Source of the DNA: Pseudomonadota bacterium
GTDB lineage: Bacteria > Pseudomonadota > Gammaproteobacteria > Steroidobacterales > Steroidobacteraceae
DNA length: 64,000 nucleotides
NCBI GenBank assembly: GCA_037200975.1
Contig: JBBCGI010000001.1
Location: forward strand, 2,418,001-2,482,000
Direction of reading: 5' to 3'
In this document: positions 31,841 through 40,366 of the stretch, piece after piece
Layout: each line of letters opens with the position of its first letter
Numbering within the stretch: the first letter of the stretch is position 1
Program-made: the position numbers and the translations under genes
The notes under the pieces: generated by a model
The model's database searches: none
Seen by the model: only the letters and a program-made list of their open reading frames with translations
Told to the model about the DNA's origin: nothing

Positions 31841-32917
31841 GTGCAGCGCATCGAAGTAAGACTGGGATCTCGCAGCTATCCGATATTCATCGGCGCCGGA
31901 GCGATGACGCATGCGGAAGAATTCGCGCGCGCCATTCCGGCCCGCGACGTTCTGCTTGTGACGAATACGACGGTCGGGCCGTTGTACGCCGCAAAACTGA
32001 CCGCCGCGCTAGCGCCTCGACGTTGCATCGAGTTGACGCTGCCGGACGGCGAGGTTCACAAGACCTTCGCGAACATCTCGCGAATGCTCGACGTGCTTGT
32101 TGCGAATCGCTTCGCGCGCGATGCCTGCGTCGTTGCGCTCGGCGGCGGTGTGGTCGGCGACATGGCGGGCTTCGCAGCGGCGTGTTACCAGCGCGGCATC
32201 GCCTTCGTGCAGGTCCCGACGACCTTGTTGGCGCAGGTCGATTCCTCGGTTGGCGGGAAAACCGGCGTCAATCACCCGGGTGGCAAGAACCTCATCGGCG
32301 CTTTCCATCAGCCGGCCGCGGTTTTTGCCGACACCGATACGCTCGCCACGCTGCCCGATCGGGAGCTGCGCGCCGGACTTGCCGAAGTCATCAAGTACGG
32401 CCTCATCGTCGACGCGCAGTTTTTTAACTGGCTCGAGGCGAACGCGGCCAGGTTGCTGTCGCGTGATGCCGCTGCGCTCACTCACGCCATCAAGCGTTCG
32501 TGCGAAATCAAGGCGGACATCGTCGCGCGCGACGAGCGTGAGCAGGGCGATCGCGCCCTGCTGAATCTCGGCCACACTTTCGGCCATGCCATCGAGAGCG
32601 CGACTAGCTACTCGACCTGGCTGCATGGCGAAGCGATTGGCGCCGGGATGCTGCTGGCGGCCGACATGTCGCAGCGACTGGGCTGGCTCAAAGCCCCTGA
32701 CGTGGCGCGCGTGGAACAGGTGCTGCAGGCGTTCGGTTTACGAACCGACGTTCGCGAACTCTCGGCAGCCACGTTGGCGGAGAAGATGAAGATCGACAAG
32801 AAGGTGGCAGCCGGCAGGATTCGCCTCGTGCTGCTCAACGCCATCGGAAAATCCGTGGTGACCGGCGACTATGACGACGCGGCGTTGCGAGAGACGCTGC
32901 GCGTCCGTTGCGGATAG
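31841..32917 (+). CDS. aroB: 3-dehydroquinate synthase
   Basis: A 358-residue NAD- and metal-dependent enzyme making 3-dehydroquinate from DAHP. It starts with GTG (31841) and reads VRLGSRSYPIFIG after the first residues. It has LPDGEVHKTFANISRMLD, VALGGGVVGDMAGFAAACYQRGI, QVPTTLLAQVDSSVGGKTGVNHP and KNLIGAFHQP. The metal ligands lie in GLAEVIKYGLI, LNLGHTFGHAIE and WLHGEAIGAGML. The gene follows aroK by 54 bases. Confidence 0.97.
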   Translation: MQRIEVRLGSRSYPIFIGAGAMTHAEEFARAIPARDVLLVTNTTVGPLYAAKLTAALAPRRCIELTLPDGEVHKTFANISRMLDVLVANRFARDACVVALGGGVVGDMAGFAAACYQRGIAFVQVPTTLLAQVDSSVGGKTGVNHPGGKNLIGAFHQPAAVFADTDTLATLPDRELRAGLAEVIKYGLIVDAQFFNWLEANAARLLSRDAAALTHAIKRSCEIKADIVARDEREQGDRALLNLGHTFGHAIESATSYSTWLHGEAIGAGMLLAADMSQRLGWLKAPDVARVEQVLQAFGLRTDVRELSAATLAEKMKIDKKVAAGRIRLVLLNAIGKSVVTGDYDDAALRETLRVRCG

Positions 32918-32919
32918 CC

Positions 32920-34086
32920 ATGAACGAGCCGCTCGCGCCGTATGCCGCGATCGACGAACGAAGTCGCGGACGCCGATTTCCAGAGCCGCCACCGCGGTTT
33001 CGCAGCGAATTTCAGCGCGATCGCGATCGAATCATCCATTCGAATGCATTCCGTCGCCTCGTCTACAAGACCCAGGTGTTCGTCAATCACGAGGGCGATC
33101 TGTATCGCACGCGAATTACGCACTCCCTGGAAGTTGCGCAGATCGGCCGCACCGTTGCGCGCGCGTTGCGTATCAACGAGACGCTGACCGAAGCGATCTG
33201 CCTGGCGCACGATCTCGGTCATACGCCGTTCGGCCACGCCGGCCAAGACGCACTCAACGAATGTATGCGCGACTACGGCGGTTTTGAACACAACCTGCAA
33301 TCGCTGCGCGTCATCGACGAGCTCGAAGAACGCTATGCGGATTTTTCGGGCCTCAATCTCACGTTCGAGTGCCGCGAGGGAGTGCTCAAACATTGTTCCG
33401 TGCAGAACGCGAGACTGCTCGGCGATGTTGGCGAGCGATTCCTGCACCGGACGCAGCCCGGTCTCGAAGCACAGCTGTCGAATATTGCGGATGCTATTGC
33501 GTACAACAATCACGATGTCGACGACGGCGTGCGCGCCGGGTTGATCAGCGTGGAAGAGCTGCGCGACGTACGAGTTTTCGAGCGCTTGCATTCACAGGTG
33601 CTCGAGAAGTATCCCGAGGTGTCTGCGCGCCGGCAGCTCTACGAGACCATCCGGCGAATGGTCGATTTCCTCGTGAGCGATTTGATCATGCATTCGCAGA
33701 GGAATGTCAGCGATGCCCGCGTCGACAGTATCGATGCGGTGAGAGTTCATGCGCGGCCGCTGATCGCGCTGAGCGAGGAGGCGCTCGAGCAGCATCAGGA
33801 ATTGAAGCGTTTCCTGCGCACGAAGCTCTACAATCACCCAAGAGTCAGGGAAGTCATGGATGAAGCGAGCGCCACGCTCAAGACACTTTTTGAGGCGTAC
33901 ATGAAGGATCCGTCGCGCCTGCCGCCAGAACATCAGTCGCTTGCTGCTCGTGCCGACGCCGAGGGCGGTGAGGCCGCGCGTGCCCGCGTCGTGGCGGACT
34001 ATGTGGCGGGGATGACGGATAGGTTTGCGTACCTGGAAAGGTCGAAGATTGCACGGTTGTCCGACTACCAGAACGGCGTCGCGTAA
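32920..34086 (+). CDS. dgt: Deoxyguanosinetriphosphate triphosphohydrolase-like protein
   Basis: A 388-residue HD-domain dNTPase (type 2 dGTPase-like). It has FRSEFQRDRDRIIHSNAFRRLVYKTQVF, TRITHSLEVAQIGR, the HD motif LAHDLGHTPFGHAGQDALNE, GFEHNLQSLRV and NIADAIAYNNHDVDDGVRAGLI. The metal ligands H...HD...D are present. ATG 32920 lies two bases past the aroB stop. It is the last gene of ordinary GC content before the AT-richer accessory segment. Confidence 0.93.
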   Translation: MNEPLAPYAAIDERSRGRRFPEPPPRFRSEFQRDRDRIIHSNAFRRLVYKTQVFVNHEGDLYRTRITHSLEVAQIGRTVARALRINETLTEAICLAHDLGHTPFGHAGQDALNECMRDYGGFEHNLQSLRVIDELEERYADFSGLNLTFECREGVLKHCSVQNARLLGDVGERFLHRTQPGLEAQLSNIADAIAYNNHDVDDGVRAGLISVEELRDVRVFERLHSQVLEKYPEVSARRQLYETIRRMVDFLVSDLIMHSQRNVSDARVDSIDAVRVHARPLIALSEEALEQHQELKRFLRTKLYNHPRVREVMDEASATLKTLFEAYMKDPSRLPPEHQSLAARADAEGGEAARARVVADYVAGMTDRFAYLERSKIARLSDYQNGVA

Positions 34087-34114: not shown

Positions 34115-34990
34115 ATGCCAAACAATTCGCGCGACCAACTACTTTATGCTTTTCGCAGAGTATTGCGGCCGCTAATGCGAATCTTAGTTAGGTCGGGGGT
34201 TCGATATGACGAATTCCTTGAGCTGATCCGTGGCGTGTATGTCGAAACTGCTGTCCGTGACGGCTTGGGCGATGGCGCCAAGCCATCGCGGGCAAAGGTC
34301 TCGATTTCGACTGGCGTCCCACGCAGCGATGTAGATCGTTTTATCGACAACGATGGCGCGCTTCCTCTGCCGCCGAAGACTTTGACGGCCACTCTCTCGG
34401 AAATCCTTAACAAGTGGCACACCGATCCACAGTTTGTCGGTCCATATGGGATTCCGTTAGAACTTGAAGTCAAAAGCCACAAGACCCGCTCATTTTCTGA
34501 GCTTGTGAATGCAGTTGACTCTCAGGTAAGTGTTCATGATGTTTTAGAAGAGCTAATTCGATTGCGCACCGTTGTTTGGTCTGGCGATACGCACGTCCGA
34601 ACTGTGTCTCGAGCATTCATTCCGATCGAAGAGATGTCGCCTGCGCAGCTTGAGTTTTTTGGCAATGCACTGACTCGGCTCGCCAATACACTCCAGTTCA
34701 ACATGGACCGGCTGAATTCGACTAAGCGTCTAGAGCGCTCAGTCATCTCAGATCGCGGCCTGCCTACCTCGGTAGTGCCAATCTTTGAGAAACATGTTCG
34801 GGAGCGCGTTTCAGAACTGCTTATCGACTTGGACAACTGGCTCAGCCCTTACTCCGCGCAGGTAGAGCCGGGTGTTGAGTTTGAGAAGGTGGGATTGGCT
34901 GTATTTCAATTCGTTGATCCTGTTGTCGATTCGACCCCCCTTCGCGAGAAAGTAGCGTCCGATGCCCGTGACGCTAGGCCCGTCGTCTAA
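34115..34990 (+). CDS. DUF6502 family protein (copy A)
   Basis: A 291-residue soluble protein of the DUF6502 type; function not known. The N-terminal helical block LRPLMRILVRSGVRYDEFLELIRGVYVETA looks like a DNA-binding or dimerisation helix bundle, and PSRAKVSISTGVPRSDVDRFI resembles an HTH. The family hallmark comes next: ILNKWHTDPQFVGPYGIPLEL, then FSELVNAV and VHDVLEELIRLRTV. The C-terminus has LDNWLSPY and GLAVFQFVD. Base composition is clearly AT-richer than the flanking genes. It is followed by the exported repeat protein and two more diverged relatives. A regulatory role is inference. Confidence 0.82.
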   Translation: MPNNSRDQLLYAFRRVLRPLMRILVRSGVRYDEFLELIRGVYVETAVRDGLGDGAKPSRAKVSISTGVPRSDVDRFIDNDGALPLPPKTLTATLSEILNKWHTDPQFVGPYGIPLELEVKSHKTRSFSELVNAVDSQVSVHDVLEELIRLRTVVWSGDTHVRTVSRAFIPIEEMSPAQLEFFGNALTRLANTLQFNMDRLNSTKRLERSVISDRGLPTSVVPIFEKHVRERVSELLIDLDNWLSPYSAQVEPGVEFEKVGLAVFQFVDPVVDSTPLREKVASDARDARPVV

Positions 34991-35052
34991 ACATCTCTGC
35001 TGTCGTTTTTGTGCGTCCCTTTTGACTTAAGGGCTCAATTGGCAGTAATGTT

Positions 35053-35068
35053 TGTGACGCAGGTCGCA
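35053..35068 (+). promoter_or_regulatory. CRP/Clp-like site before the repeat-protein gene
   Basis: TGTGACGCAGGTCGCA has one mismatch to TGTGA-N6-TCACA and is identical in 14 of 16 bases, including most of the spacer, to the site at 6470-6485. A -10-like TAAAAT lies at 35086-35091, so the site would centre near -36. It is 59 bases upstream of the start codon. Confidence 0.5.
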
Positions 35069-35127
35069 GTTTTGGTCTCGTTTTGTAAAATGTCGTCCAC
35101 CTCATGGATTGGGCGCGGGAATCACAT

Positions 35128-36102
35128 ATGGGCATCACTGGAAGATTCCGCTTTGGAGCAGCCGTGCTTGCTGCAAGTCTTTGTGCAAACGCAAGCGCTG
35201 ACAACGTCATCGCCGTGGGCCCAGTGGAAAGAGTTTCGGTCGACGGATCGGTTGTTCAAGTCCTCGGCCAAGTGTTCAAGATTCGCAGCTCTCATTCCAT
35301 TGAGGGTAGGGCGGAGTATTCGGACACATCATTGAATCTGCGCTTGGGAGCCTACCTGTATATCGAGGGGGAACGTTCCGCCGACGGCTCGTTGGTCGCA
35401 TCTTCATTCCTTGTTGACGAATCGCCTTACGTCGCTGGCGCGAGCGAAGTCCTGCTGGCAGGTATAGTTTCGAAGTTTGATCAACTAACAGGCTTGGCAA
35501 CGATCGGGAGCGCGCAGATCTATGTGTCTGACGCATCTGTTGAGGTAGCAACACCGATTTCGGTCGGCGCTACGATCACGGTTGTGGGCTACCAGGCGAA
35601 CCCGCGCCAGCAGATTTGGGCAACCCAAATCGACAGTAATGAGCCGATCAGCATTCTGGAGACGGGGATTGACAGCCTCAGCATCCAGGGCACCGGCAAG
35701 CAGAGCATTCAAGGTACGGGCGTCAAAAGCCTCAGCATCCAGGGCACCGGCAAGCAGAGCATTCAAGGTACGGGCGTCAAAAGCCTCAGCATCCAGGGCA
35801 CCGGCAAGCAGAGCATTCAAGGTACCGGCGCTAACAGCCTCAGCATCCAGGGCACCGGCAAGCAGAGCATTCAAGGTACGGGCGTCAAAAGCCTCAGCAT
35901 CCAGGGCACCGGCAAGCAGAGCATTCAAGGTACCGGCGCTAACAGCCTCAGCATCCAGGGCACCGGCAAGCAGAGCATTCAAGGTACCGGCGCTAACAGC
36001 CTCAGCATCCAGGGCACTGGCAAGCAGAGCATTCAAGGTACCGGCGTCAAAAGCCTCAGCATCCAGGGCACCGGCAGGCAGAGTATCCAAGGTACCGGTT
36101 AG
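35128..36102 (+). CDS. Exported protein with OB-like domain (DUF5666-like) and C-terminal SIQGTG repeats
   Basis: A 324-residue predicted secreted protein. MGITGRFRFGAAVLAASLCANASA is a signal peptide; ATG 35104 upstream is less likely. Residues about 25-180 hold three short beta-rich modules (VGPVERVSVDGSVVQVLGQVFKI, GAYLYIEGERSADGSLVASSFLV, VLLAGIVSKFDQLTGLATIGS), as in DUF5666-type OB folds. The rest is eight copies of an 18-residue unit SLSIQGTGKQSIQGTG plus VK or AN, giving 16 SIQGTG motifs to the very C-terminus. Such short Gly/Thr/Gln repeats may form a stacked beta structure. It lies between DUF6502-type genes, a pairing I recall elsewhere but cannot verify here. Function unknown. Confidence 0.8.
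   Translation: MGITGRFRFGAAVLAASLCANASADNVIAVGPVERVSVDGSVVQVLGQVFKIRSSHSIEGRAEYSDTSLNLRLGAYLYIEGERSADGSLVASSFLVDESPYVAGASEVLLAGIVSKFDQLTGLATIGSAQIYVSDASVEVATPISVGATITVVGYQANPRQQIWATQIDSNEPISILETGIDSLSIQGTGKQSIQGTGVKSLSIQGTGKQSIQGTGVKSLSIQGTGKQSIQGTGANSLSIQGTGKQSIQGTGVKSLSIQGTGKQSIQGTGANSLSIQGTGKQSIQGTGANSLSIQGTGKQSIQGTGVKSLSIQGTGRQSIQGTG
35674..36099 (+). repeat. 54-bp tandem repeat, 7.9 units, coding
   Basis: In-frame units of 54 bp, almost identical at DNA level. They differ mainly in the last two codons: gtc-aaa (VK) or gct-aac (AN), in the order VK, VK, AN, VK, AN, AN, VK, then a final short unit with Arg for Lys. The near-identity, silent sites included, points to recent expansion by slippage or recombination. 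Confidence 0.97.
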
Positions 36103-36387
36103 CTACTTTTTTGGGATACGAGCAAAGTTCCCGGCGATCAATAAGCACAAAAATTGTTCATATCTCCCGAAGCGGTAAATAGCTTCTGGAGGGTTCACGC
36201 GAATCCGCAATCGCTTCGTGTGCCATGCCGCCACGCGAGTTTCGCGGAACTCAATAGTGCTTTTCGCTGCGAATGACGTGAAATTCGGTTAGCAGTCTCC
36301 GCGTCGCCGCGTACAAAGTTCCCAGCACAACAGCTTCCGAACAGAAGGCCCGGCCGCACTGCGCGATCCTCTATCCTTCCGTCGAAC

Positions 36388-37245
36388 ATGAAACGTCGAG
36401 CACGCATAGTAGGGCGCCAAAAAAGGAACGCCCGAGCACCCGCGCTTTCGGCGTCGAATCAGATCGATCGACACTTGATGCAGATACTAGTAAACGTTGC
36501 GCAACTGCTCTTGCGGAACGGCTACGGGTTCCGTCGCTTCAATAAACTCGCGAGATTGGCGTTTGTTGAAGCTGCTGTAGCTCTCGATGCAGGTTCGGAT
36601 TTGCGACCAAGCATCGCGAGAATCGCGGCCGCCACTGGGCTAACACGCATTGAGGTGTCGCAGCTTCGACGGGCCAGATCGGCATCGCAACTAACTGAAA
36701 CCACCCCATTGAATCGAGCACTAAGCGTCGCATTAGGCTGGAGTTCTGATGCGGCCTTCCTTGGCGAAAGAAACCGACCACGGCGCTTGCCGTTTGCCGC
36801 CTCTGACGCAAGCTTTACTAGGCTCGTCAAAAAATATAGCGGTGATATTCCTGCTCGAGCAATGCTTCTTGAGATGGAACGACTAGGAATGGTGAGAGAA
36901 AGCGAGATTGGATTCGTCGAACTAGTCAGAGGAAATTCACGGGCAGTAAAGCCAGCGCTTGCGGCTATTCGAGCGATCTCCCCATGGGTGAACTTCTTCA
37001 GCAAGTCGGGCGATGAGGGAGGCAATGAAGACCTGACTTCCACAGCACGACAGCTAAAAATTCATTTCGAGTCGCTGCCTCAGGTTTATGCGGCCGTACG
37101 AGAGATCGAGAATCGGCGAGCATCGTTTATTACAGGCCTGGAACTTCTCGGTACTCGATCAAGTAAAAATGCGGAATATGAGCTCACCATCTCGGTTGCA
37201 GTTGCAGCCGCAAAGCCTCTGCGCGCAAAGAAAGCTAGTCGATAG
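36388..37245 (+). CDS. DUF6502-like protein (copy B, diverged)
   Basis: A 285-residue protein with a basic N-terminus (MKRRARIVGRQKRNARAPALS). LVNVAQLLLRNGYGFRRFNKLARLAFVEAA then aligns by eye with the same region of copy A. SIARIAAATGLTRIEVSQLRRARS is a good HTH candidate. The central block SVALGWSSDAAFLGERNRPRRLPF matches the DUF6502 hallmark loosely, followed by FTRLVKKYSGDIPARAMLLEMERLGMV. No ribosome site precedes ATG 36388; ATG 36478 is an alternative. AT-rich codon use sets it apart from the core genome. The 285 bases before it hold no gene; only a 10-base direct repeat CAAAGTTCCC (near 36125 and 36315) was noticed. Confidence 0.72.
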   Translation: MKRRARIVGRQKRNARAPALSASNQIDRHLMQILVNVAQLLLRNGYGFRRFNKLARLAFVEAAVALDAGSDLRPSIARIAAATGLTRIEVSQLRRARSASQLTETTPLNRALSVALGWSSDAAFLGERNRPRRLPFAASDASFTRLVKKYSGDIPARAMLLEMERLGMVRESEIGFVELVRGNSRAVKPALAAIRAISPWVNFFSKSGDEGGNEDLTSTARQLKIHFESLPQVYAAVREIENRRASFITGLELLGTRSSKNAEYELTISVAVAAAKPLRAKKASR

Positions 37246-37267
37246 TTATTGCCTCACGGAGCTGAAC

Positions 37268-37996
37268 ATGAACCGAGCGCAACTGACAAGCGATCGAAAA
37301 CTTGTGATTCGCGAAGCCGTAGTCCAACTATTCGCGCTTCAGCTTGGTTCTGGGACCAGTCTCGACGCCCTTAGGCTTTTCGCACTGGAGTGCGTGGACT
37401 CGGCATCAAAGAAAGCCAATATTGACCCACAAGAAACAATCGGGTCCGATGTTCAAACTATTGGCAGTCTACTTAGGACGTGGCATCGGGAAACGAAATA
37501 CCTTTCGAAGGATGGTTTACCGCGCCCGCTCGGGCTCACCGGAAAAAATGGCCTTCGAAAGCTCGTCGGTTCGTACTTTGATCCTGAGAAATTTGAAACT
37601 GTAGTTGACGGGCTACGAAAATCTGGATTAATCAAAGAGACGAGGCAAAAGAAGTGGATTCCTACGGGGAAGTATGGTGTGGTGCCAATGATTTCCCAGG
37701 AGTTGTTAGCACACTTGGCCGAAGGCGTTTCCCGGTACGTGGAGACCGTTACTAGAAACGTCACAACGCGCCGGAAGGAAAACACCTTGTTCGAACGGTC
37801 AAGTAAAGTCCGCGAATTCCCTGTCTCCGCTGCCCCAGATTTTCGAACGCTTGTGAATCAACAAGCTATTGCATTCTTGGCTGTCGTGGATGACTGGCTC
37901 GAAGCGCGTGTCGAGGAGTCGAGCAAGTCCCGTTCAAAGAAATGCACCGCGGGCGTGTTTGCATTTGCATTCCTCGATGAAAGTGCGATGGACTAG
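37268..37996 (+). CDS. DUF6502-like protein (copy C, diverged)
   Basis: A 242-residue protein. The start at ATG 37268 has CGGAG six bases before it; the frame is open further up into copy B but without a ribosome site. REAVVQLFALQLGSGTSLDALRLFALECVDSA corresponds to the N-terminal helices of copies A and B. SLLRTWHRETKYLSKDGLPRPLGL is a clear version of the WH...DG.P.PL hallmark, followed by FETVVDGLRKSGLI. The C-terminus VDDWLEARVEE...GVFAFAFLDE matches the D-x-WL...F-x-F-x-D end of copy A. It lies 22 bases after copy B, so the two are likely co-transcribed. Confidence 0.75.
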   Translation: MNRAQLTSDRKLVIREAVVQLFALQLGSGTSLDALRLFALECVDSASKKANIDPQETIGSDVQTIGSLLRTWHRETKYLSKDGLPRPLGLTGKNGLRKLVGSYFDPEKFETVVDGLRKSGLIKETRQKKWIPTGKYGVVPMISQELLAHLAEGVSRYVETVTRNVTTRRKENTLFERSSKVREFPVSAAPDFRTLVNQQAIAFLAVVDDWLEARVEESSKSRSKKCTAGVFAFAFLDESAMD

Positions 37997-38019: not shown

Positions 38020-39690
38020 TCAGGCCTTCGGCAACTCCTCCCTCAGCGCCCTCCTCAAAATCTTCCCCACATTCGTCTTCGGCAGTTCAGCCCTGAAATA
38101 CACGTGCTTCGGCACCTTGTACCCCGTCAACGCTTTCCTGCAGTGCTCGATCACCTGCTGTTCAGTAAGGCTCGGATCCTTCTTCACGACAAACAGCGCG
38201 ACAACCTCTCCCGACTTCTCATCCGGCTGCGCAATCGCGGCGGCCTCGAGCACGCCAGGATGCGTCACGGCGACGCTCTCGACTTCATTCGGATAAACAT
38301 TGAATCCCGATACGAGGATCATGTCCTTCTTCCGGTCCTCGATGAACACGAGTCCGCGCTCATCGATCCGCCCGATATCTCCGGTGCGCAGCAGATCGGC
38401 GCCGATCATCACGTTCGCGGTTTCATCTGGCCGATTCCAGTAACCAGCCATCACCTGCGGGCCGCGCACACAAATCTCCCCCACTTCATTGATCCCTAGC
38501 TCATTACCCGCATCGTCGCGGATGCTGATCTCGGTCGACGGAATCGGATAACCGATAGACCCGTTGAAGTCGTCGCCCGGCTTGTTGATACACGCTGCCG
38601 GCGATGTCTCGGTGAGCCCCCACGCCTGCGTGAGAATCTTCCCGGTCACTTCCTTCCAGCGCTTCGCGACAGCCTCCTGCACGGCCATGCCTCCTCCAAG
38701 CGTGATGCGCAAGCTGCTGAAATCGACGGTGTCAAAACCGGGCGTATGTAGCAACGCGTTGAACAGGGTGTTCACGCCGCTGATGTACGTAAACTTGTAC
38801 TTCTTGAGCTCCGCCACAAACGCCGGGAAATCGCGCGGGTTCGTGATGAGCACGTTGCGCCAGCCGAGCACCACGAACAGCAGGCAGTTCGCCGTCAGTG
38901 CGAAGATGTGATACAGCGGCAGCGCGGTTATCAACGTAGCCGGATCGCGCGGAAACGCCGGGCCTATCCACTCGAGCGCCTGCAAAACGTTCGCCACCAT
39001 GTTGCCGTGCGTGAGCATCGCGCCCTTGGCGATACCGGTGGTGCCGCCGGTGTACTGCAGAAACGCGATGTCGCTGTGGTTCAACGACACGGGCTGCATC
39101 CGGACCTTGGAGCCGGCCTTGAGCGCCTGCTTGAACTTCCATGCGCCGGGCAAACTGAACGGTTTCACCTGTTTGCGTTTGTGCCGCACGACGAAGTCGA
39201 CGATGTTGCCCTTCGGGAACCCCAGCATCTCGCCGACACTGGTCAGCACGACATGTTTGATAGGCGTGTGCGCGATCACTTCCTGCAGCACGTGCGCGAA
39301 GTTCTCGACGATCACGATCACAGTGGCGCCGGAATCGCTGAGCTGATGCTCGAGCTCGGGCGCGGTATACAGGGGATTGGTATTGACGATGGTAAAGCCG
39401 GCGCGCAGCGCGCCAAGCACGACGATGGGGTACTGCAGAGTGTTGGGCATCATCACGGCGACGCGGTCGCCCTTCTTGAGCCCGCAGCTCGTCTGCAGGA
39501 ACGCGCCGAACTGCGCCGACAGCACATCGAGCTCGCCGTACGTCATGGCCTTGCCCATCTGGACATAGGCATCGCGCACGGAGTGGATGGCGAGCCCGCG
39601 CTCGATCATCTCCTTGAGCGAGGGGTATTCGTTGACATTGATTTCAGCGCGGACACCCGGCGGATAAGACTTGAGCCAATGCTTTTCCAC
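38020..39690 (-). CDS. fadD: Long-chain fatty acid--CoA ligase
   Basis: A 556-residue AMP-forming enzyme that activates fatty acids to acyl-CoA at the inner membrane. It starts VEKHWLKSYPPGVRAEINVNEYPSLKEMIERG, like gammaproteobacterial FadD. The AMP-binding P-loop is QYTGGTTGIAKGAMLTHGNMVAN. LTETSPAACINKPG, GDIGRIDERGLVFIEDRKKDMILVSGFNVYPNEVE and PKHVYFRAELPKTNVGKILRR follow. GTG 39690 with GAGGGG upstream is preferred to the in-frame ATG 39744. It is convergent with DUF6502 copy C. Confidence 0.95.
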   Translation of the reverse strand: MEKHWLKSYPPGVRAEINVNEYPSLKEMIERGLAIHSVRDAYVQMGKAMTYGELDVLSAQFGAFLQTSCGLKKGDRVAVMMPNTLQYPIVVLGALRAGFTIVNTNPLYTAPELEHQLSDSGATVIVIVENFAHVLQEVIAHTPIKHVVLTSVGEMLGFPKGNIVDFVVRHKRKQVKPFSLPGAWKFKQALKAGSKVRMQPVSLNHSDIAFLQYTGGTTGIAKGAMLTHGNMVANVLQALEWIGPAFPRDPATLITALPLYHIFALTANCLLFVVLGWRNVLITNPRDFPAFVAELKKYKFTYISGVNTLFNALLHTPGFDTVDFSSLRITLGGGMAVQEAVAKRWKEVTGKILTQAWGLTETSPAACINKPGDDFNGSIGYPIPSTEISIRDDAGNELGINEVGEICVRGPQVMAGYWNRPDETANVMIGADLLRTGDIGRIDERGLVFIEDRKKDMILVSGFNVYPNEVESVAVTHPGVLEAAAIAQPDEKSGEVVALFVVKKDPSLTEQQVIEHCRKALTGYKVPKHVYFRAELPKTNVGKILRRALREELPKA

Positions 39691-39718
39691 GGCGACCCCT
39701 CGAATATGGTGTCGCAGG

Positions 39719-40366
39719 CTAGCTTGCGGGTTTCCCCGGAGCAACTAGCAGCGGCTTGAGCTTCGGCCAGAGGTTTTCGAGCAGCTGCGGCTGCCCGAGC
39801 GCATTGGGATGCAGCCCATCGGCCTGCATGAGATCGGGCTTGAGCGCCACCTGGTCGAGAAAAAACGGCACGAACGCCACGGGGTACTTGGCCGCCAGCG
39901 CGGCAAACATGTCGCGGAATTCCTGGCCGTAACGCGCACCGTAGTTAGGCGGTATCACCATGCCGACGAGCACGACGCGCGCTTTCGCCGCGCTCGCACG
40001 CTCGACGATTTGCCGCAGATTCTCGCGGCTGGTGGCGAGCGGCAGGCCGCGCAACCCATCATTGCCACCAAGTTCCACGATCACGATGGCCGGCTTGTGC
40101 GATTCGAGCACCCGCGGCAGCCGCGCGAGTCCTCCCTGGGTGGTTTCGCCGCTCACGCTGGCATTGATCACGCTGTATCCGTACCCTTCGGAAGCGAGCC
40201 GCTTCGACAGCAGGTTTACCCAGCCTTCCTGAACCTTGATGCCATAGCCGGCGCTGAGACTGTCGCCCAGCACGACGATGGTGCGCGGCGCTGGGGTCGC
40301 GGCAATCGCAGGCATCGCCAGCGCGAACAGCAATACCAACTGAATGGATCTGATGAGCGTACTCAA
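39719..40366 (-). CDS. tesA: Arylesterase / acyl-CoA thioesterase I (GDSL, TesA-like)
   Basis: A 215-residue periplasmic SGNH hydrolase. The signal peptide [22 protein letters not shown] is followed by the four family blocks: IVVLGDSLSAGYGI (Ser), NASVSGETTQGGLARLP (Gly), VIVELGGNDGLRG (Asn) and ADGLHPNALGQPQ (Asp/His). The start looks to be TTG 40366, nine bases after GAGG; the frame extends upstream without signal-peptide logic. This places the start inside the 5' end of the divergent ybbA. The tesA/ybbA-ybbP layout is as in Escherichia coli. Confidence 0.92.
   Translation of the reverse strand: MSTLIRSIQLVLLFALAMPAIAATPAPRTIVVLGDSLSAGYGIKVQEGWVNLLSKRLASEGYGYSVINASVSGETTQGGLARLPRVLESHKPAIVIVELGGNDGLRGLPLATSRENLRQIVERASAAKARVVLVGMVIPPNYGARYGQEFRDMFAALAAKYPVAFVPFFLDQVALKPDLMQADGLHPNALGQPQLLENLWPKLKPLLVAPGKPAS

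Follow-up and report, generated by a model that had tools for sequence, protein, structure and literature searches.

What is the role of three diverged DUF6502 genes grouped around an exported repeat protein between dgt and fadD? In the stretch of 64,000 nucleotides analysed here (the window), four plus-strand genes, termed A, S, B and C, fill the interval between these two neighbors. For coordinates and internal features see Table 1. A previous sequence-only reading had described the three DUF6502 genes, an exported DUF5666-like protein with 16 SIQGTG motifs between A and B, and a base use that differs from the surroundings, and all three observations were confirmed. In a Pfam profile search the products of A, B and C matched PF20112 (DUF6502) with 87.4, 84.4 and 35.6 bits and S matched PF18914 (DUF5666) with 35.1 bits, the curated cut-off being 27 bits for both families. 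SIQGTG occurs in S exactly 16 times. The four genes A, S, B and C have a GC content of 51–57%, compared with 60% for dgt and fadD and 63% for the window as a whole. Within the genome of 4.65 Mb, DUF6502 was found only in A, B and C and DUF5666 only in S.

Table 1. Features of the A-S-B-C locus and its two neighbors, in window coordinates.
Feature	Position	Strand	Remarks
dgt	32908–34086		left-hand neighbor of A
Gene A	34115–34990	+	DUF6502, 291 aa; full HetR-like architecture (predicted)
Helix-turn-helix of A	34289–34348	+	residues 59–78; AF2 helices 59–66 and 70–78
Winged-helix/flap-like part of A	34493–34603	+	residues 127–163
Hood-like C-terminal part of A	34640–34915	+	residues 176–267
Conserved non-coding blocks	35020–35103	+	upstream of S; probable promoter/regulatory region
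Gene S	35128–36102	+	exported DUF5666 protein with hexapeptide repeats
Putative signal peptide of S	35128–35199	+	MGITGRFRFGAAVLAASLCANASA; recognized by eye
DUF5666 domain of S	35218–35403	+	ORF residues 39–100 (Pfam)
16 SIQGTG hexapeptides	35674–36098	+	one array with a 54-bp tandem unit, 7.9 copies, 94% match (TRF)
Gene B	36388–37245	+	DUF6502; HTH kept, hood-like motifs lost
Gene C	37268–37996	+	DUF6502; hood-like motifs kept, HTH motif lost
fadD	38020–39744	−	right-hand neighbor of C

Gene C starts 22 bases past the end of B and its start is preceded by GGAG. For S, the second ATG (35128) is a more probable start than position 35104, where the open reading frame opens. Non-coding blocks upstream of S, such as TTTTGACTTAAGG and TGTCGTCCA, are also present in the congener L065, and are thus kept between two congeners although the N-domain of S is just 35% identical. 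A search for inverted repeats as operator sites yielded none, and NCBIfam and PHROGs searches of the genes gave no useful match.

A tree of 67 DUF6502 proteins resolved three groups, with support values of 97 for C, 96 for A and 83 for B. These subfamilies are ancient and differ in the motifs they retain. The helix-turn-helix (HTH) motif TG[LIVFM]x[RK] is present in 15/18 A, 22/22 B and 0/23 C proteins, the C-terminal hood motif D-x-W-[LMIV] in 12/18 A, 1/22 B and 18/23 C proteins, and an ER segment in 13/18, 2/22 and 16/23 proteins, respectively. The Pfam matches are distributed accordingly, with B covering model positions 9–158 and C positions 91–241. B and C are complementary halves, with the DNA-binding half in B and the hood-like half in C, and these complementary losses suggest that adjacent B and C act as partners. 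At two other loci, two tandem A-type DUF6502 genes stand ahead of S (L084, 7684–9461; L080, 981–2746) and no B or C was seen; the S genes that follow contain 21 GIRGTG and at least 9 GIIGSG words, respectively.

As modeled by AF2 with a pLDDT of 88.9, A comprises two long N-terminal helices, an HTH, a winged-helix-like part and two long C-terminal helices. The TG-x-x-R motif of the HTH is conserved in the alignment. The flap-like part is built up from two helices (residues 127–134 and 140–149) and a β-hairpin (residues 153–163). It is followed by the hood-like part, in which a helix (residues 176–197), an RLER segment, a long helix with the D-x-W-L motif (residues 218–247) and a strand-like end succeed one another. 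This order of elements was compared by eye with that of the HetR hood, which is α-β-α-β (PMC4649674).

A Foldseek search of 350,542 PDB chains with the model of A returned three HetR entries first (4izz, 4j00 and 3qod, with E-values of 2.7e-3, 3.4e-3 and 5.3e-3). A second DUF6502 model from another genome (L045, pLDDT 91.5 from AF2), which is not fully independent of the first since their alignments share most sequences, again had HetR as its best hit (4j00, E-value 3.9e-5, probability 1.00, 300 columns, full length), with the next unrelated match at 0.099. Anabaena HetR entries were absent from the 50 matches listed. The TM-scores to HetR were only 0.43–0.48 for the monomer model, with an r.m.s.d. 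above 8 Å; such values are expected if domains move, yet they are no proof.

Kinship to HetR was also sought by sequence, without a significant result. Comparisons of DUF6502 with two and then 104 HetR sequences in hhalign gave P = 0.14 and, in an alignment that was not colinear, P = 0.05, and hmmsearch was not significant in either direction. In 16 cyanobacterial genomes the Pfam DUF6502 profile had no match at hetR, the HetR_C profile matched nothing at the A-S-B-C locus of this genome, and a search for HetR on plasmids found none. Among PDB sequences, the matches of the DUF6502 profile were limited to designed repeat proteins and short segments. Because of the moderate TM-scores and the non-significant profile comparisons we limit the claim to architecture: that DUF6502 has a HetR-like architecture is a strong prediction, whereas membership in the HetR family is not proven.

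The repeated words of the S proteins had been recognized before the fold search pointed to HetR. Beside DUF6502 they differ between genomes (SIQGTG, SILGSG, GIIGSG, GITGSG, GISGSG, GIDGSG, AIRGSG, GIRGTG, GLGGSG, GITGVG, GLNGVG, AIVGTG) but mostly have the shape [GSA]-I-x-G-[ST]-G; words found across the phylum are GIGGTG, GMGGTG, GIRGTG, GILGTG and GIIGTG. Exceptions to the shape are SIGGGD, SISGGD, GQTGSDR and SMGSG-type repeats. Besides a pattern-based codon analysis of the words in 13 proteins, seven S proteins were read column by column, taking whole repeat units without selecting for the motif. The six word columns showed 0 nonsynonymous differences, most of them varying synonymously, whereas the spacers of the same proteins vary nonsynonymously. 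The array of S in the window has two kinds of copy, between which the word differs only synonymously; since its units are nearly identical, it is the least informative of the arrays read. The words are exact despite irregular, unrelated spacers (15–38 residues in L102, 15–32 in L008), and minimal S genes encode a signal peptide and 3–6 words only. The hexapeptide is under purifying selection and, as its amino acids are invariant while the spacers change, is itself the selected unit.

Larger DUF5666 relatives contain several such domains and a lipoprotein N-terminus, repeat-type S proteins add many hexapeptides to the domain, and some relatives do without it altogether. In the canonical DUF5666 lipoproteins of L085–L098, one motif resembling a word (GIEGTG, GIGRTG, GIDRGG) stands just past the lipobox linker, and the repeats may have originated from it.

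Of 98 relatives, 70 have DUF6502, as do 25 of 397 genomes sampled throughout the phylum, and it adjoins DUF5666 or S genes phylum-wide. In counts that took the best matches rather than a random sample, 22 of 30 DUF5666-centered loci had DUF6502 at a distance of at most 1.5 kb, 25 of 30 DUF6502-centered loci had a DUF5666/S gene, and 17 of 20 phylum-wide loci had a DUF5666-like gene by profile (an eighteenth, by motif only, is probably due to chance). Together with family membership and the predicted HetR-like fold with its HTH, this neighborhood supports the functional tie of A, B and C to S that the sequence-only reading had suspected. That reading had missed the hexapeptide as the selected unit, the complementarity of B and C and the link to an oligopeptide-binding protein. 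A gene of the latter type (SBP_bac_5) adjoins DUF6502 at 0–533 bp in eight genomes from three families, although genomes have only 1–3 such genes each (16 genomes counted). The eight cases, in which the product is an oligopeptide-binding lipoprotein encoded directly beside DUF6502 (L066, L069, L073, L074, L082, L087, L088 and L091), do not represent eight independent events, since several loci share inherited context. In another family of the class, two DUF6502 genes (L266, 4213–5052; L268, 4432–5271) have no DUF5666 or word-repeat neighbor and are possibly orphan regulators.

Peptide control of HetR is a textbook example of how bacteria form patterns. According to published descriptions, HetR is confined to filamentous cyanobacteria and its flap and hood have novel folds (PMC4649674, PMC7761841). 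An RG(S/T)GR hexapeptide that binds along strand β-3 of the hood turns HetR off, detaching it from DNA (PMC4649674). RG(S/T)GR is the core of PatS and PatX (PMC7761841). The precursor PatX accompanies all HetR; it bears a Sec signal peptide, and its export and cleavage yield HRGTGR (PMC12756182, PMC7761841). The system described here resembles HetR with PatX, PatS and HetN in that DUF6502 has a predicted HetR-like fold with an HTH and a C-terminal hood-like part, its partner S has a signal peptide and short G-(S/T)-G peptides, and regulator and precursor co-occur; by the neighborhood counts, S genes occur where a regulator of predicted HetR-like fold is encoded, as expected of a PatX-like precursor. 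In contrast to HetR, DUF6502 is proteobacterial, with sequence homology to HetR undetected, and occurs in up to three paralogues with complementary losses, in some genomes with the oligopeptide-binding protein gene next door. The S precursor often has DUF5666 domains, and its words are present in up to dozens of copies, mostly without arginine. S itself has SIQGTG rather than RGTGR. The words of relatives that come nearest to RG(S/T)GR are AIRGSG and GIRGTG, and S words sometimes contain RGSG or RGTG.

RRNPP-type pheromones of Firmicutes involve an exported precursor, its re-import, an oligopeptide-binding protein and a cytoplasmic HTH receptor of the TPR fold. DUF6502 and S would share this logic of exported precursor, oligopeptide-binding protein and cytoplasmic HTH receptor. 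The receptor fold, however, is predicted to be HetR-like and not TPR, the hosts are Gram-negative, and import is only proposed. Pfam DUF6502 is a family without described function, and in the open-access literature we found no paper that names it, nor any on "HetR-like" proteins or on HetR beyond the cyanobacteria. Both its HetR-like fold and its division into three subfamilies are proposals of the present analysis.

From these observations we propose, with a probability of roughly 50%, that A-S-B-C is a HetR/PatX-like peptide-regulated signaling and regulatory module. A would be a DNA-binding regulator, with its N-terminal helices and HTH followed by the winged-helix/flap-like middle and the hood-like end. 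S would be exported via its signal peptide, carrying many copies of SIQGTG, and peptides would be freed from it, as HRGTGR is from PatX. These peptides would then be taken back up, probably via the oligopeptide-binding protein and its transporter. Inside the cell the peptide would bind to the hood-like part of A and/or C and thereby change DNA binding, for which S and the regulator genes are the likely targets. B, with an HTH but no hood motifs, and C, with hood motifs but no HTH, would be partners in a split version of the A-type switch. The parts of this proposal differ in strength. Family membership, the HTH, the conserved neighborhood, purifying selection on the hexapeptide and the complementary losses in B and C are results of computation. 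The HetR-like fold is likely, as judged from the models, and the link between the genes is strong; the peptide steps (release, uptake and binding), the target promoters and the pairing of B with C are inferred.

The main way in which this proposal could be wrong is a chance likeness of a G-(S/T)-G repeat to the HetR ligand. The arginines that hold PatS in HetR are absent from most words, and some words depart further from the ligand (SIGGGD, GQTGSDR). It also counts against a peptide switch that there are no protease or transporter genes within the A-S-B-C locus, that in this genome SBP_bac_5 is encoded some 90 kb from it, and that many canonical DUF5666 proteins bear one word or a looser form of it (GIDRGG).

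The HTH, the predicted fold and the operon-like neighborhood would also suit an arrangement in which A, B and C regulate S alone. S would then be a structural protein of the surface or matrix, with repeats for adhesion or assembly and no peptide feedback. Surface proteins commonly bear glycine-rich repeats, and many partners have DUF5666 domains and lipoprotein-type N-termini. We nevertheless regard this as rather unlikely, because the words are exact in spite of their irregular spacing and differ by genome, minimal S genes have only a signal peptide and words, DUF6502 is linked with the oligopeptide-binding protein, and the likeness to HetR ligands would have to be a coincidence. Assembly factors, which the sequence-only reading had named next to regulators, are a much poorer fit: the conserved gene neighborhood would agree with cytoplasmic DUF6502 factors that assemble or secrete the DUF5666 protein, but A and B have a conserved HTH, the fold matches a transcription factor and no similarity to chaperones was found. 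The link to S stands, with regulators as the better description, and a role in assembly is very improbable.

Comparison with congeners bears on two further explanations. In the congener G001, dgt (placed by tblastn) is followed by A-S-B-C and then fadD. Identity amounts to 82% for A, 84% for dgt and 86% for fadD (flanks 84–88%), but to 44% for B, 45% for C and 35% for the N-domain of S. Between the two congeners, B and C (window 36388–37996 against L065 11077–12668) and the S N-domain have a much higher rate of evolution than A and its flanking neighbors. This divergence, and words that vary by genome, would be expected of a self/non-self or conflict locus. There, words specific to the species would be displayed outside by S, and B and C, which evolve fast, would recognize or answer them in kin discrimination or phage defense. 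Yet SIQGTG is common to both congeners, A, S, B and C all lack a PADLOC match to known anti-phage defense systems, and B and C have no effector domain, which makes such a role improbable. A recent foreign origin of four AT-rich genes with no joint function would account for a GC content below that of the flanks, and the segment had indeed been called accessory. This was wrong. A recent horizontal island is rejected by the same order and place in the congener and by the identity of A, which is like that of dgt and fadD; in other genera of the family, variant sets occupy the dgt–fadD interval or a site next to ligA-zipA-smc, and three old subfamilies travel together. The low GC content is an old property, given the same genes and place in the congener and the habit of DUF6502 genes, which lie below the GC of the remaining locus in 26 of 28 loci. 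Synteny already contradicts a recent foreign origin, which is hardly credible.

Returning to the peptide-regulated module, we tentatively extend it to the family, with somewhat less than even confidence: throughout Pseudomonadota, the large DUF6502 family may consist of transcription factors that resemble HetR and are controlled by peptides, with the DUF5666/repeat neighbors as precursors of genome-specific hexapeptide signals, and in this lineage the receptor may be split into a DNA-binding B and a peptide-sensing C. HetR-like regulators beside hexapeptide precursors in proteobacteria would give two DUF families a function, and the DUF6502-S set suggests a peptide signaling system in bacteria where none was known. 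Such regulators would also offer a peptide signal that can be tested in Gram-negative bacteria, and would hint at the origin of HetR. If the proposal is true, HetR/PatX is one branch of a wider signaling class and not a cyanobacterial invention.
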